DNA of 64,000 nt. It comes from Paracoccus rhizosphaerae. Its GTDB lineage: Bacteria; Pseudomonadota; Alphaproteobacteria; Rhodobacterales; Rhodobacteraceae. Below are positions 59,796-64,000 of this stretch, one piece after another (the first letter of the stretch is position 1; every line of letters starts with the position of its first letter). Made by a program: the position numbers and the translations under genes. The DNA lies in assembly GCF_026162645.1 (NCBI RefSeq), contig NZ_JAOTBE010000015.1, positions 1-64,000 on the forward strand, in the 5' to 3' direction. Under the pieces are notes generated by a model that saw only the letters and a program-made list of their open reading frames with translations, searched no databases and had not been told where the DNA came from.

Positions 59796-61520
59796 ATGAC
59801 CCGAACGACCGCCAGACGTCGCCACGACCACGCCCTGCGCCAGGCAGGCGGTCGCGGATGGTCGCTGGCCGCGATCGCCGTGGCGGGACTGGTCCTGATG
59901 CCGGTCCTGGCGGTCGCCTGGATCGCGGCGAACCCCACCGACAACATCTGGCCGCACCTTTTGTCCACGGTCATGCCGCGCTATTTCGGCAACACGGTGG
60001 TGCTGGCGGCAGGAACGGGCCTTCTGGCGGCGGCGATGGGGGCGGGGGCAGCCTGGCTGATCAGCATGTACGACTTTCCGGGCCGGGGCGCGCTGCAATG
60101 GCTGCTTTTGCTGCCGCTGGCGGTTCCGGCCTATATCGGTGCGTACGCGCTGGCCGATTTCCTGGACTATTCCGGTCCGGTGCAGATTGCGCTGCGTGGT
60201 TGGTTCGGCTGGGAAAGCGCGCGCGACTATTGGTTTCCGCGCATCCGCTCGATCGAGGCGGCGATCGTAGTGCTGGCCTCGGCGCTTTATCCCTATGTCT
60301 ACCTGCTGACCCGCGCCGCGCTGATCGAGCAGTCCGGCAGCGCCTACGAGGTCGCGCGTGCCCTCGGTACCGGGCCTTGGTCGCTGTTCCGGCGCGTCGG
60401 CCTGCCGCTTGCGCGCCCGGCCATCGTCGCGGGGGCGGCCATCGCCATGATGGAGGCCGTGGCCGACTATGGCGTCGTCAGCTATTTCGGGGTGCAGACC
60501 CTGAACACCGGGATCTTCACGACTTGGCTGGAGCGCCGCAATGCCGGCGGCGCGGCGCAGATCGCCTGCGTCATCCTGCTGATCGTCGTTGCCCTGGCGC
60601 TGTGGGAACGCTTCGCCCGTCGCAACGCCCGCTATCACCAGAGCGCGCGCCAGCCCCGCCCCATCCAGCGCCAGCGGCTGCGCCCGTTGGTCGGCCTGAT
60701 GGCGATGGCGGCCTGCGTGCTGCCTTTCGCGCTTGGCTTCCTGCTGCCCGTGGGGGTGATCCTGCGCTATGCGCTGGCCTATCCGCAGGGCTGGGTGACG
60801 CCGGGCCTGCTGCGTGCGGCATGGCACACCATCATGCTGGGGGGGATGGCGTCTTTGCTGACGGTGGGGATGGCACTTGTCATGGTCTATGGCACGCGGC
60901 TGTCGGGACGCGCGCTGCCCCGCCTTCTGTTACCCGTGACGACCGTGGGCTATGCCGCGCCGGGAGCGGTTCTGGCCGTGGGGATCCTGATCCCGCTGGC
61001 GGCCCTGGACCACCGGGTCGCCGATGGCTGGCTGGCCGTGACCGGCAGCGATCCGGGGCTGATCCTGACCGGCAGCGGCGCGGCCATCGTGCTTGCCTAT
61101 GTCGTGCGCTTCTTCGCCATCGGGCAGGGCGCCATCGACGGCGCCTTCACCCGGGTACCGCCATCGCTGCCCATGGCGGCGCGGTCGCTTGGCCGTGACA
61201 GCGCCGGCGTCCTGCGCGACGTCTTCCTGCCGCTGATGCGCGGTTCCGTCGGAGCGGCGCTGCTTCTGGTGTTCGTCGATTGCGTCAAGGAGCTTCCGGC
61301 GACGCTGCTGCTGCGCCCCTTCAACTACGAGACCCTGGCCACCCGCACGCATGAACGCGCCAGCCTCGAGGATCTGGGGAATGCCGCTCCGGCCGCGCTG
61401 CTGGTCATGGCGGTGGGACTTCTGGCGGTCGCCCTTCTGGCACGCACCAACCTGGGCGCCGCCACGCGCGACTTGCGGAATTCTGCGGGGCAGGGTAACG
61501 GATCGGAAACGCCGGCTTAG
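59796..61520 (+). CDS. Iron(III)-type ABC transporter permease (FbpB-like)
   Basis: 574-residue permease with two fused transport domains of about six spans each. Coupling loops are YEVARALGTGPWSLFRRVGLP in the first half and MAARSLGRDSAGVLRDVFLP in the second, the layout of FbpB/SfuB ferric iron permeases. No binding protein or ATPase gene is adjacent, and the window passes directly into the island. Its TAG stop at 61518-61520 lies inside the 5' end of the tRNA-Thr remnant, so the last three codons are tRNA sequence. The natural end may have been altered. Confidence 0.88.
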   Translation: MTRTTARRRHDHALRQAGGRGWSLAAIAVAGLVLMPVLAVAWIAANPTDNIWPHLLSTVMPRYFGNTVVLAAGTGLLAAAMGAGAAWLISMYDFPGRGALQWLLLLPLAVPAYIGAYALADFLDYSGPVQIALRGWFGWESARDYWFPRIRSIEAAIVVLASALYPYVYLLTRAALIEQSGSAYEVARALGTGPWSLFRRVGLPLARPAIVAGAAIAMMEAVADYGVVSYFGVQTLNTGIFTTWLERRNAGGAAQIACVILLIVVALALWERFARRNARYHQSARQPRPIQRQRLRPLVGLMAMAACVLPFALGFLLPVGVILRYALAYPQGWVTPGLLRAAWHTIMLGGMASLLTVGMALVMVYGTRLSGRALPRLLLPVTTVGYAAPGAVLAVGILIPLAALDHRVADGWLAVTGSDPGLILTGSGAAIVLAYVVRFFAIGQGAIDGAFTRVPPSLPMAARSLGRDSAGVLRDVFLPLMRGSVGAALLLVFVDCVKELPATLLLRPFNYETLATRTHERASLEDLGNAAPAALLVMAVGLLAVALLARTNLGAATRDLRNSAGQGNGSETPA

Positions 61521-61565
61521 CTCAGTGGTAGAGCGTCTGATTTGTAATCAGGGGGTCGGGGGTTC
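61511..61565 (+). pseudogene. Truncated tRNA-Thr(UGU)
   Basis: GCCGGCT acceptor strand, D-arm GCTC...GAGC, anticodon stem-loop TCTGA-TTTGTAA-TCAGG with anticodon TGT, variable loop and GGGGGTTC of the T-arm are all in place (61511-61565). After TTC the sequence becomes TTATCTTACCC, so the T-stem cannot close and the 3' acceptor half (AGCCGGC plus discriminator) is missing. The gene cannot make a tRNA. The break is inside the T-loop, a classic integrase attachment position. Confidence 0.85.
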
Positions 61566-61578
61566 TTATCTTACCCGC

Positions 61579-61591
61579 GCTGTAGTACAGC
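61579..61591. repeat. Perfect palindrome next to the tRNA break
   Basis: GCTGTA-G-TACAGC, 13 bases after the end of the tRNA remnant. It could be a recombinase core or terminal-repeat remnant; no second copy was seen within the window. Confidence 0.4.
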
Positions 61592-61984
61592 TTAACTGTC
61601 CGGTGTACCTCTCGGAAGTGCCTCAGAATGCTCTACTTCTCGTACTCGTTCAGGCAACTCTATGCGTACACATTAACAGGGATAGTTATGCCCATCGCTC
61701 CTGCTTAGTTTTTTCTGCGGAGTTCACTTCATGAGCGGCACAAACAATACGCCGTGGAGCACCGATGATCCGTCTGCGGCGTCGACGAGGGCGATATGGC
61801 AGCTGTCGAGCCGCCAAACAGCGCACGGGCATTCATCTGAAGCTCAGCACTCGGCGCGGTGTTTGCCGTGCTCCTGCGAACTATCATCAAGATTGAACAA
61901 GCCAGATATCTGCGGGCGACTGGCCGTATAAGCTGTTTTCGCATAGCGCCTACAATTCGAAGATGTCGGTCATGCGGTGGCAGA

Positions 61985-62037
61985 GCATGATCCGGGCGGG
62001 CGGAGACATCCGCCATCGCAGCCCGGCCGGATCATGC
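61985..62037. repeat. Long imperfect inverted repeat in the island
   Basis: Left arm GCATGATCCGGGCGGGC (61985-62001) and right arm GCCCGGCCGGATCATGC (62021-62037) differ from perfect pairing at one position in 17. The 19-base spacer overlaps an inner GGCGGA/TCCGCC hairpin. It follows directly the stop of the broken minus-strand frame, so it may be that gene's transcript end; an insertion-element end is the alternative. Confidence 0.6.
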
Positions 62038-62487
62038 GTTTAGAGGGAAGGTGATCTCGTGAAGTTCTAATAAAAATAGTCTTGTCCGTTCGTCGGCGAC
62101 GCGCAACAGGGAGTAGATCCCGCGGGAAAGCCGGCGCTCTCTCCGATCTGTTGAGCTTCGGCGCGAGAAGCGGCGCGCGCGTCCTCAGTCTCATGAGCAC
62201 CAACATGATTTTAACCATGACCGCAGGTGCAACTTTGGTGATATATGGAGCTGGAGGTGCGGCTGGTAGATCTTCGCTCAGAAGAAATCTTACCAGCTGC
62301 TCAGCCGCATGGGCGAATGGAGGTGCAGCGGTAGGAGCCGGCACAGCGCGGCTGCGGGGGCTCCTTATGCTCGGCTTCTCGAAGCGGCCGCTCAACCGAG
62401 GCACAGCAAAGTCGACAACGCAGCCTGAAGCGATTTCTGAGTGCCGTGCTAATCTGCATAGCGCTGGGTCAGGCGTCCCCACGCAAT

Positions 62488-62516
62488 TTGCAGTGCGGCG
62501 CCCGCCCTGTTACACA
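62488..62516 (+). promoter_or_regulatory. Promoter candidate for the dnd-like operon
   Basis: TTGCAG (62488-62493), 17 bases, TACACA (62511-62516), 56 bases before the dndC start codon. Moderate match to the housekeeping consensus. Confidence 0.4.
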
Positions 62517-62571
62517 ATATGCAGCAGCCAGAGCGATGGAATCGCGCAGGTAACGAGGGGGAATACAGCCC

Positions 62572-63738
62572 ATGAGCGTCGCTGAAGCATTGGTAGTCGA
62601 AGATGAGGGCGCAGCGCTCTTCAGGGCTATTCGGGCTGAACTTCTGGACGAATATCGTCAAGATCACGATTGGCCGTGGATCATAGGATACTCTGGAGGC
62701 AAGGACAGCACACTGGTGACGCACCTCGTCATCGAAATGCTGCTCTCTATCCCTCCATCACAACGCTCCCGTCCTGTGCATATCGTCGCCAATGATACAC
62801 TGGTGGAAAGCCCACTTGTCGTACAGCATATCGTCGAAAGCATGGAAGAGATCGGGAACGCAGCTAATGCGTTTGGTCTTCCCATAGTTACGAAGATCAC
62901 GCGTCCATCGCCTGATCAATCTTTCTGGGTAAACCTCATCGGCCGCGGCTATCCCTCTCCCAACAGGTCGTTTCGTTGGTGCACGGACCGTATGAAAATC
63001 CTCCCCACCAGTCGCTACATCAAGAGCCAGGCCGATGAGGCCGGGCAGGTTGTGCTGCTGCTTGGTGTGCGCCGATCTGAGAGTGCGACTCGCGCCGCAT
63101 CCGTCGGCCGTTATGACAACGGGGAGCGGCTCAACAAGCACAATGATCTGGTGGGATGCATGGTCTTTCGCCCGATCGTCGAGCTGCATACAGATGACGT
63201 CTGGGAGTTCCTGGCGCTCAACGAACCGCCGTGGGGCGGGTCGCACTTGAAGCTAATAGGTCTTTATCGCAGCGCCAGTGGTGGAGAGTGCCCTGTAGTC
63301 ACGTCTAAGGATGACGCTCCCTCTTGCGGAACAACGTCGTCCCGCTTCGGGTGCTGGACCTGCACGGTTGTTGAAAAAGACCGGAGCCTCGAAGGCTTCG
63401 TTGAATCCGGCTATTCTGAGTTTACCCCGCTGTTGGATTTCCGCGACTGGCTTGTGTCAATCCGCAACGAGAAGGAACGGCGTCAGGCGCGCCGCCGGGA
63501 TGGTCGTATCACGATCACGAATGGCGGCACGTTCGTTCCAGGACCGTTCACGCTCCAGACGCGCGCAGAAATACTTGAAAAGCTTAGACGACTGGAGCAT
63601 GCAACCGGGCAGAGCTTGATTACAGAAGAAGAAATTGATCTTATTCACCAGATTTGGTCAGGAGAGATTGCCGACCATGGTAAGGCCAAGACGTTCAGTG
63701 TTCGTGAGATTGTGAAGGACAGAAAGCATGCCACGTAA
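62572..63738 (+). CDS. dndC: DndC-like DNA phosphorothioation sulfurtransferase
   Basis: 388-residue PAPS-reductase/ATP-pyrophosphatase-type protein. The PP-loop GYSGGKDSTLVTHLVIEML is near residue 40. The DndC-like blocks VANDTLVESPLVV, NRSFRWCTDRMKI, GVRRSESATRAAS, and the cysteine set ECPVVTSKDDAPSCGTTSSR with GCWTCTVVEKDRSL (Fe-S ligands) follow. DndC activates DNA and inserts sulfur into the backbone with IscS/DndA as donor. The C-terminus is shorter than in the roughly 500-residue DndC proteins I recall. AGGGGG precedes the ATG. No dndB precedes it. GC is lower than in the host genes. Confidence 0.88.
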   Translation: MSVAEALVVEDEGAALFRAIRAELLDEYRQDHDWPWIIGYSGGKDSTLVTHLVIEMLLSIPPSQRSRPVHIVANDTLVESPLVVQHIVESMEEIGNAANAFGLPIVTKITRPSPDQSFWVNLIGRGYPSPNRSFRWCTDRMKILPTSRYIKSQADEAGQVVLLLGVRRSESATRAASVGRYDNGERLNKHNDLVGCMVFRPIVELHTDDVWEFLALNEPPWGGSHLKLIGLYRSASGGECPVVTSKDDAPSCGTTSSRFGCWTCTVVEKDRSLEGFVESGYSEFTPLLDFRDWLVSIRNEKERRQARRRDGRITITNGGTFVPGPFTLQTRAEILEKLRRLEHATGQSLITEEEIDLIHQIWSGEIADHGKAKTFSVREIVKDRKHAT

Positions 63739-63931
63739 TGTTGTTGTACTTCTCGATAATCCCGACGGCCGAACGATGATCAAGGAGGCATGTAAGTCGA
63801 ACGGCATGCTGTTTGCGGAATTTGAGGAACTGGTCCAGGTCGAAGTCGAGCAGACCGGCAAGCAACGTCGCGCCGGTCTGTGGGATTCCTTCGATGACAT
63901 TTTGGACCGCATCCAGATGGACGAACATTAA
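63728..63931 (+). CDS. Small protein associated with DNA modification systems
   Basis: 67-residue acidic protein starting MPRNVVVLLDNPDGRTMIKE, with a helical C-terminal half rich in Glu, Asp and Gln (WDSFDDILDRIQMDE). It overlaps the dndC-like gene by 11 bases and precedes the next gene by 3 bases, so it is part of one operon. Similar small proteins are listed with DndC-type operons as I recall, but none has a known activity. It may be an assembly partner or a substrate adaptor (inference). Confidence 0.75.
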   Translation: MPRNVVVLLDNPDGRTMIKEACKSNGMLFAEFEELVQVEVEQTGKQRRAGLWDSFDDILDRIQMDEH

Positions 63932-63934
63932 CAA

Positions 63935-64000
63935 ATGCATATTTCACAGATTACGTTGCGTGACTGGAAAGCATACACATCGGCGAACTTCGAATTTCCA
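63935..64000 (+). CDS. DndD-like (SMC/RecF-type) ATPase, 5' part only
   Basis: First 22 codons of an open frame running off the window: MHISQITLRDWKAYTSANFE then FP. The pattern of a short beta-strand, LRDWKAY and an aromatic-rich FEFP is typical of the beginning of RecF/SMC-like ATPases, which in this context suggests DndD, the ATPase/nicking partner of DndC. The P-loop lies beyond the edge, so the family call rests on position and 22 residues. Four bases separate it from the stop of the small protein. Confidence 0.55.
   Translation, partial: MHISQITLRDWKAYTSANFEFP

Follow-up and report, generated by a model that had tools for sequence, protein, structure and literature searches.

A DndE-HerA-type DNA phosphorothioation operon in Paracoccus rhizosphaerae with a probable DndC-DndD docking clamp encoded as a separate gene

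INTRODUCTION

In a comparative genomics study, Rakesh et al. 2024 (PMC10853773) described DNA phosphorothioation operons that place a DndE carrying HerA/FtsK domains next to an ATPase related to DndD. These DndE-HerA systems, whose translocases belong to clade 3 of the HerA/FtsK proteins, have the same architecture as the locus reported here, except that DndD is interrupted in the present copy. The variant is already catalogued together with its small protein, for which Pfam holds the family Sp-DndD (PF20306, "DNA modification system-associated small protein" in RefSeq). The available sections and passages of Rakesh et al. (PMC10853773) do not state that the small protein corresponds to the tail of DndC, nor is the docking function considered below stated in the titles and abstract openings of the literature searched.

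Canonical DndBCDE operons (Escherichia coli, Streptomyces, Ruegeria) have the catalytic part of DndC, DndD, and DndE in common with this locus. The upstream dndB, single-chain DndC, and stand-alone DndE of those operons are not found here: the end of DndC is encoded by its own gene, a translocase is joined to DndE, no dndB lies in front, and no cysteine desulfurase occurs later on the contig. The DndFGH restriction complex is represented only by a HerA part resembling the C-terminal domain of DndH, with DndF, DndG, and the rest of DndH absent from the contig that follows. For E. coli B7A, the part of DndC that binds the DndD head is predicted to be residues 433 to 482, and the substitutions L458D/E462A/R471A in E. 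coli DndC broke the DndC-DndD interaction in a pull-down (Fu et al. 2025, PMC12193691). DndC and DndD have been suggested to be insoluble apart and mutually stabilized through a hydrophobic interface (PMC4611135).

The window analyzed here comprises the first 64,000 bases of a 67,847-base contig in a 4.06-Mb draft genome of 191 contigs. At its end lies an operon that we consider probably to be a DndE-HerA-type DNA phosphorothioation system in which a 67-amino-acid (aa) protein would act in trans as the DndC-DndD docking clamp.

RESULTS

An operon on foreign DNA

A sequence-only reading of the window had proposed a phosphorothioation-type operon, a variant of dnd carried as island cargo, with open reading frames (ORFs) for a DndC-like protein, a 67-residue protein, and the start of an ATPase. 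All three ORFs are present where they had been placed, and both the variant and its foreign origin are borne out by the gene content and by a drop in G+C content at a tRNA-Thr remnant. The contig extends 3.8 kb past the window, up to position 67847, and includes the remainder of the operon; contig positions equal 60000 plus the position in L002, the window's own locus.

61511..61565, plus strand: truncated tRNA-Thr(TGT) gene, 5' part only; left boundary of the foreign segment
61566..62571, no strand given: about 1 kb ahead of the operon with no recognized gene; G+C content of 0.571, versus 0.670 before it
62572..63738, plus strand: dndC, catalytic part, 388 aa; TIGR03183 at 363.7 bits, above the cut-off
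63728..63931, plus strand: 67-aa small protein, detached DndC C-terminal segment; TIGR03183 positions 397-445, E 8e-4
63935..64000, plus strand: start of a dndD-type ABC ATPase; PADLOC PDLC02736
63935-65509 (contig), plus strand: dndD piece 1, 524 aa; PADLOC PDLC02736, E 9e-220
65515-66018 (contig), plus strand: dndD piece 2, 167 aa; PADLOC PDLC02736, E 7e-81
66015-67544 (contig), plus strand: dndE-herA, 509 aa; DndE domain and HerA-type ATPase
About 67727 to the contig end: multicopy element found at 11 places in the genome, own copy included

By their ORF coordinates, dndC and the gene for the 67-aa protein overlap by 11 nucleotides (nt), and the ORFs of the window agree with the earlier statement that no dndB precedes dndC. 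The start of the multicopy element resembles what we take to be an IS3-type transposase, and from its copy number and its start the element is read as an insertion sequence.

The G+C content falls from 0.670 (window positions 1-61510) to 0.554 (61566-64000) at the tRNA-Thr(TGT) remnant. The segment at 61566..62571 occurs as a single copy in the genome and has no blastn match in the other loci compared. At the matching place, tRNA-Thr(tgt) is intact in the four sister-genome loci scanned (L102, L103, L104, and L106), and ARAGORN found no tRNA in the window. Searches of the assembly at up to one mismatch returned neither a second copy of the tRNA-Thr 5' end nor the missing half, the four hits for the latter being tRNA-Val, -Pro, -Met, and -Leu. 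The sole tRNA-Thr(TGT) 5' end found in the assembly ends at the start of the island, representing either a broken tRNA or a mis-join.

Comparisons were based on 81 loci, consisting of the window and the best 80 of 588 relatives from a scan of GTDB genomes. The recurrent order is a DndC of about 380 aa, a small protein of 65 to 75 aa, a DndD of about 690 aa, and a DndE-ATPase of about 510 aa. The position of the small gene between dndC and the ATPase gene, pointed out in the earlier reading, recurs in dozens of loci and therefore did not arise by chance.

DndD is interrupted in this copy

The dndD gene lies in two frames, whose products match a single PADLOC model, labeled PbeC, at positions 1-512 and 529-683; both pieces also match the DndD profile TIGR03185. 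A CxC-type ATPase of the PbeABCD/CxC systems can be ruled out, since neither CxC nor CxxC occurs within residues 151-520 of the DndD ORF in any of the 80 loci with such an ORF, including the first piece in the window, and the PbeC label is not decisive.

From start to end, dndD spans 2,084 bases, one fewer than the 2,085 of the intact relative L003, to which its nucleotide identity by quarter is 0.75, 0.78, 0.74, and 0.78. Because identity is about equal before and after the break, the interruption points to a recent loss or an assembly error, with the copy either having lost its function recently or containing a single mis-assembled place. With DndD interrupted, the activity of this copy is doubtful. 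It is nearly an even bet that the copy is a decayed remnant that arrived on an island and was later inactivated when dndD, next to a mobile element, changed frame. This possibility concerns only the present copy and is compatible with the docking-clamp interpretation, which concerns the system. Besides the two dndD ORFs with their one-base deficit, decay is favored by the multicopy element directly after the operon and by the lack of a match in the genome to PF14072 (DndB) or to the DGQHR protein of L003, the latter search lacking a positive control. Decay is opposed by the even identity across the break, by the open frames of DndC, the small protein, and DndE-HerA, and by the draft state of a genome in 191 contigs.

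Four of the 81 loci (window plus the best 80 of 588) have dndD in two ORFs (L002, L015, L063, and L066), and in all four the next gene stays open, as would occur through either selective loss or assembly errors. The nearest relatives (L003-L008, L032, and L063) have a DGQHR/DndB-like gene after the operon. This gene is present in 23 of these 81 loci and in 18 of the 53 whose downstream sequence exceeds 7.5 kb; none of the four neighbor genes searched occurs in 31 of those 53. Within the same set, 14 of 81 loci encode a protein of about 180 aa (L003 15008-15553 and homologues) that has no family match over cut-off and mostly adjoins the DGQHR/DndB-like gene, and 8 of 81, as detected by profile, have a SAM-dependent methyltransferase gene near the operon on the opposite strand (e.g., L006 9969-11033, L005 16906-17970, L063 8140-9219, and L091 13196-14215).

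DndE is fused to a DndH-like translocase

Located directly after dndD is a gene whose 509-aa product begins with a DndE domain. The Pfam score of this domain is 24.3 bits, just below the cut-off of 25, and its assignment to DndE follows from a profile of six stand-alone DndE proteins of relatives, which matches residues 2-134 at E 9.9e-31, and from the canonical DndE profile, which matches residues 28-117 at E 8e-4. The structural model (pLDDT 87.1, pTM 0.70) is of low confidence at residues 138-150, between the two parts. Among solved folds (Foldseek), the HerA part best matches the C-terminal domain of DndH (7es4; E 6.5e-17, TM score of 0.78 on the target), with the second match at E 3.7e-9 and generic HerA, VirB4, and TrwB proteins lower among the 50 listed; the best solved match by sequence profile is also 7es4 (E 5.2e-16). 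With DndE fused to a HerA/FtsK-type ATPase and adjoining a DndD-related ATPase, the locus is a DndE-HerA Dnd system, putatively of clade 3.

Other effectors had been considered possible downstream: the gene found there is the DndE-HerA fusion, and neither dndFGH nor another effector lies on the remaining contig. The iscS gene that the earlier reading had named as one to look for in the following DNA is likewise absent, and no dndB, dndFGH, or iscS was found downstream on the contig, up to 67847.

The fusion could instead be a restriction effector acting on unmodified invader DNA and not a helper of modification, an alternative that we regard as unlikely. Both the similarity of the HerA part to the DndH translocase and the lack of dndFGH on the contig speak for such an effector. 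It is opposed by the lack of a nuclease domain in DndE-HerA among Pfam matches at E 0.01 or better and by the status of DndE as a subunit of the modification complex (Fu et al. 2025, PMC12193691).

DndE resides on a protein of more than 350 aa in 58 of the 81 loci (window plus the best 80 of 588) and on a short ORF in 9 (that of L040 being cut by the contig end), and is unmatched in 14, some of which end early. Within the taxonomic family, DndE-HerA at E 1e-60 is confined to seven genera and 7 of the 295 genomes, the present one included. An alignment (A1) contained 30 DndE-HerA proteins. In L047 (13424-14965), the partner of DndE in the fusion is not HerA but an ATPase of the FtsK/SpoIIIE type, with SspH as its closest relation, so that a second kind of translocase is joined to DndE.

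The 388-aa protein is the catalytic chain of DndC

Against TIGR03183, the 388-aa protein scores 363.7 bits (curated cut-off, 290.4), with a match that covers only positions 9-364 of 447. The comparison of DndC and SspD profiles proposed in the earlier reading yielded 395 bits (E 1.2e-118) for the PADLOC model of DndC and 36 bits (E 1.4e-9) for that of SspD. Because the DndC scores far exceed the SspD scores, the protein is DndC, and SspD is ruled out; what the locus shares with SspABCD is a PP-loop sulfurtransferase for DNA. The DndC of the window is 89% identical to that of L003, for which a sequence search found no match among solved structures.

The PP-loop motif is SGGKDS, and cysteines 137, 240, 252, 261, and 264 correspond by motif to E. 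coli residues 146, 262, 273, 280, and 283. The motif and the cysteine pattern occur in 81 of 81 loci (window plus the best 80 of 588). The specificity loop, GYPSPNRSFRWC, contains the triplet N-R-S, which is present in 22 of the 44 DndC rows of the window's branch, the window included. The published triplet T-R-S goes with GAAC/GTTC, and N-R-S is absent from the published triplets (Fu et al. 2025, PMC12193691). Since N-R-S is one change from T-R-S, the modification site is perhaps GAAC/GTTC-like, which is a weak inference. In a second branch, 33 of 37 DndC proteins did not fit the pattern of the loop, so no triplet was read for them.

The 67-aa protein is homologous to the DndC tail

The sequence-only reading had described a short DndC of about 388 residues with an extra protein beside the shorter enzyme. 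Its length is as described, but the 67-aa protein is not an addition: DndC appears short because its C-terminal segment is encoded separately. The 67-aa protein matches only the end of TIGR03183, aligning with about the last 49 positions (397-445 of 447) at E 8e-4, and in profile-profile comparison its family matches DndC with a probability of 96.1% (E 3.4e-9) onto E. coli DndC residues 430-485, versus 0.6% with an unrelated control.

Seventy-one free small proteins, taken from the 81 loci after passing a motif filter and with trimmed N termini, yielded a full profile. It matched 9 of 10 named canonical DndC proteins (E 8e-8 to 0.6) and 118 of 120 top-ranked DndC proteins, 116 of them at E<0.01 and all 118 within the last 110 residues, whereas only 1 of 312 reversed or shuffled controls matched, at E 9. 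The Hymenobacter DndC was unmatched, the Streptomyces DndC (L093) gave E 0.6, and the E. coli DndC alone gave E 0.04. The 120 DndC proteins were the most similar to a single Ruegeria DndC in the ranking used and are therefore not independent. A profile of the 39 small proteins of the window's branch matched 116 of the 120 at E<10, only 2 of them at E<0.01, with 0 of 312 controls and with named canonical DndC proteins at E 0.002 to 5. The profile of the second branch matched 118 of the 120, 111 of them at E<0.01, and 3 of 312 controls (best E 3.3). Because the profile of the window's branch is much weaker, the link to the tail leans on the second branch and on the profile-profile comparison.

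The matched region contains the published interface. The E. coli DndC proteins of L099 and L100 have Cys 146, 262, 273, 280, and 283 and L458, E462, and R471 as published, although they are 544 aa long, as opposed to 540 in Fu et al. 2025 (PMC12193691). An alignment of 17 canonical DndC proteins (A3; 11 loci and 6 of the 120 retrieved) has R471 throughout, with L458 and E462 each conserved in at least 90%. All three interface residues (L, E, and R) are kept in the 67-aa protein of the window. The equivalents in the small proteins of its branch are L in 39/39, E in 29/39, and R or K in 39/39, and those in the second branch are L in 32/32, E in 5/32, and R or K in 5/32.

Database families agree with this relationship. 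Three second-branch relatives score 45 to 56 bits against PF20306, above the cut-off of 27.2, and a canonical DndC (P0008) scores 27.1 bits at residues 408-454. Precomputed Pfam assignments place PF20306 on many of the 120 top-ranked canonical DndC proteins, so the relationship of the small protein to the DndC tail is visible in the database. No Pfam family matches the 67-aa protein of the window at E 0.01, and PF20306 does not match its L003 homologue (90% identical) at E 0.1; the small protein of the window belongs to a divergent branch that alignment ties to the Sp-DndD family. The match to the end of the DndC profile (E 8e-4) and the profile-profile result for the family (96%) place it with Sp-DndD and the DndC tail. 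TusA was rejected as its identity (E 0.059 for the L003 homologue; no CPxP motif). Regarding a link to the small proteins of CxC systems, one Halorubrum protein was unmatched by the small-protein profiles.

The split is conserved

Directly after DndC, a match to the small-protein profile occurs in 75 of the 81 loci (window plus the best 80 of 588): in 74 it lies on its own ORF between dndC and dndD, a count made without the motif filter in a set spanning several phyla, and in one (L050) it lies on the DndD ORF. Five further loci (L037, L038, L039, L042, and L045) have an N-terminal extension of DndD that aligns with that of L050 and is individually unmatched at 1e-3, L050 alone being below that value and the L045 extension having no small-protein profile match at all. 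As a group, the extensions give profile-profile probabilities of 93.9% with the small protein and 21.8% with canonical DndC, and these six relatives seem to carry a piece related to the small protein on the DndD N terminus. L081 has neither the small-protein module nor a DndD match.

The DndC tree has 98 rows (81 loci, L084, 11 named canonical DndC proteins, and 5 of the 120 retrieved) and contains a branch with 100/99 support that parts 16 canonical from the split forms, among which L081 is labeled split, though no small protein was seen there. Its root is arbitrary, and a very long branch (L094) joins the two sides. The six loci with a DndD extension form one clade, also with 100/99 support. 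The window's branch comprises L002-L044 and L063 (39 small proteins and 44 DndC rows, some with a separate DndE), and the second branch comprises L045-L082 without L063, with L047 being the sole member scanned for ATPase type (FtsK-type). RefSeq annotates DndC and the small protein as two separate genes on three plasmids, and all four genes are open in Methylorubrum extorquens AM1 (L084).

Five loci (L037, L038, L039, L045, and L050; annotated in L098) are tandem systems with the DndD extension and a separate DndE. In these systems, a further member of the small-protein family (profile-profile probability of 90.5%) precedes a second ABC ATPase with no adjoining DndC.

The 67-aa protein is probably a detached DndC-DndD docking clamp and not a regulator, given its homology to the DndD-binding stretch, its kept L, E, and R residues, and the conserved split. 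Rakesh et al. 2024 (PMC10853773) described the small protein found in CxC-ATPase systems as mostly disordered and proposed that it may be a negative regulator. Here, it is rather improbable that the small protein is a fast-evolving, mostly disordered negative regulator or phage-trigger sensor that resembles the DndC tail by descent only. Sequence varies within the family, an alignment of 40 members (A2) having 2 invariant columns, the model of the isolated protein reaches only moderate confidence (pLDDT 72), and the copies before a second ABC ATPase lie apart from DndC, all of which would suit a regulator. That same model has three helices, however, and the homology to the DndD-binding stretch of canonical DndC, the related extension fused to DndD, and the free form between dndC and dndD in 74 loci all favor docking.

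A sequencing error or local frameshift in a canonical dnd operon would fit the sum of 388 and 67 aa, which is close to the DndC profile length, but is refuted by the conservation of the split across several phyla, in 74 of 81 loci (window plus the best 80 of 588), and by the annotation of two genes on three plasmids.

TusA genes in related operons

In five operons, a TusA-family gene with a CP.P motif has a 4-nt overlap with the end of the DndE-ATPase gene (L054 14935-15180, L059 14923-15159, L075 14941-15180, L076 14886-15116, and L085 12923-13159). In L016 and L017, TusA adjoins the operon on the other strand. This arrangement suggests that in-operon TusA may be a sulfur carrier for DNA phosphorothioation in some relatives. 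Counting against this lead, loss of tusA in E. coli did not abolish the Dnd phenotype of a canonical system (PMC3519819). In the passages available, none of three papers dealing with TusA, that one included, locates it within a dnd operon, and its occurrence there is not stated in the titles and abstract openings of the literature searched.

DISCUSSION

In the system proposed, a housekeeping cysteine desulfurase would supply sulfur to DndC, a PP-loop, Fe-S sulfurtransferase. We infer a housekeeping source, as none follows on the contig; the broad aminotransferase family of the cysteine desulfurase has 11 matches in the genome, 9 of them above the cut-off. By its homology to the published interface, the 67-aa protein would bind the DndD head and hold DndC to the DndD/DndE DNA-scanning machine. 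With DndE fused to a DndH-type HerA translocase, DNA binding and pumping would be combined in one chain, which, judging from its domains, may both bind and move DNA. The assembled complex would mark DNA with phosphorothioates. A defense role may be supposed from the family and its patchy distribution only.

The same clamp may, more tentatively, be portable. It would reside within DndC in canonical systems, on a separate gene throughout the DndE-HerA/FtsK branch, and at the N terminus of DndD in one clade, with a further copy next to a second ABC ATPase lacking its own DndC; its separation would be one change on the DndC tree. Should this possibility hold, one sulfurtransferase could serve two DNA-scanning ATPases via two clamps, with in-operon TusA bringing sulfur in some relatives.

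For the annotated small-protein family PF20306, the docking clamp provides a candidate function at the level of individual residues, and it sets a testable alternative beside the published suggestion of a disordered regulator (PMC10853773). It would also explain the short DndC across a whole branch of systems. Because the coupling piece is a separate gene, it could be removed with the enzyme left untouched, and Methylorubrum extorquens AM1, with its open copy of all four genes, offers a tractable strain.
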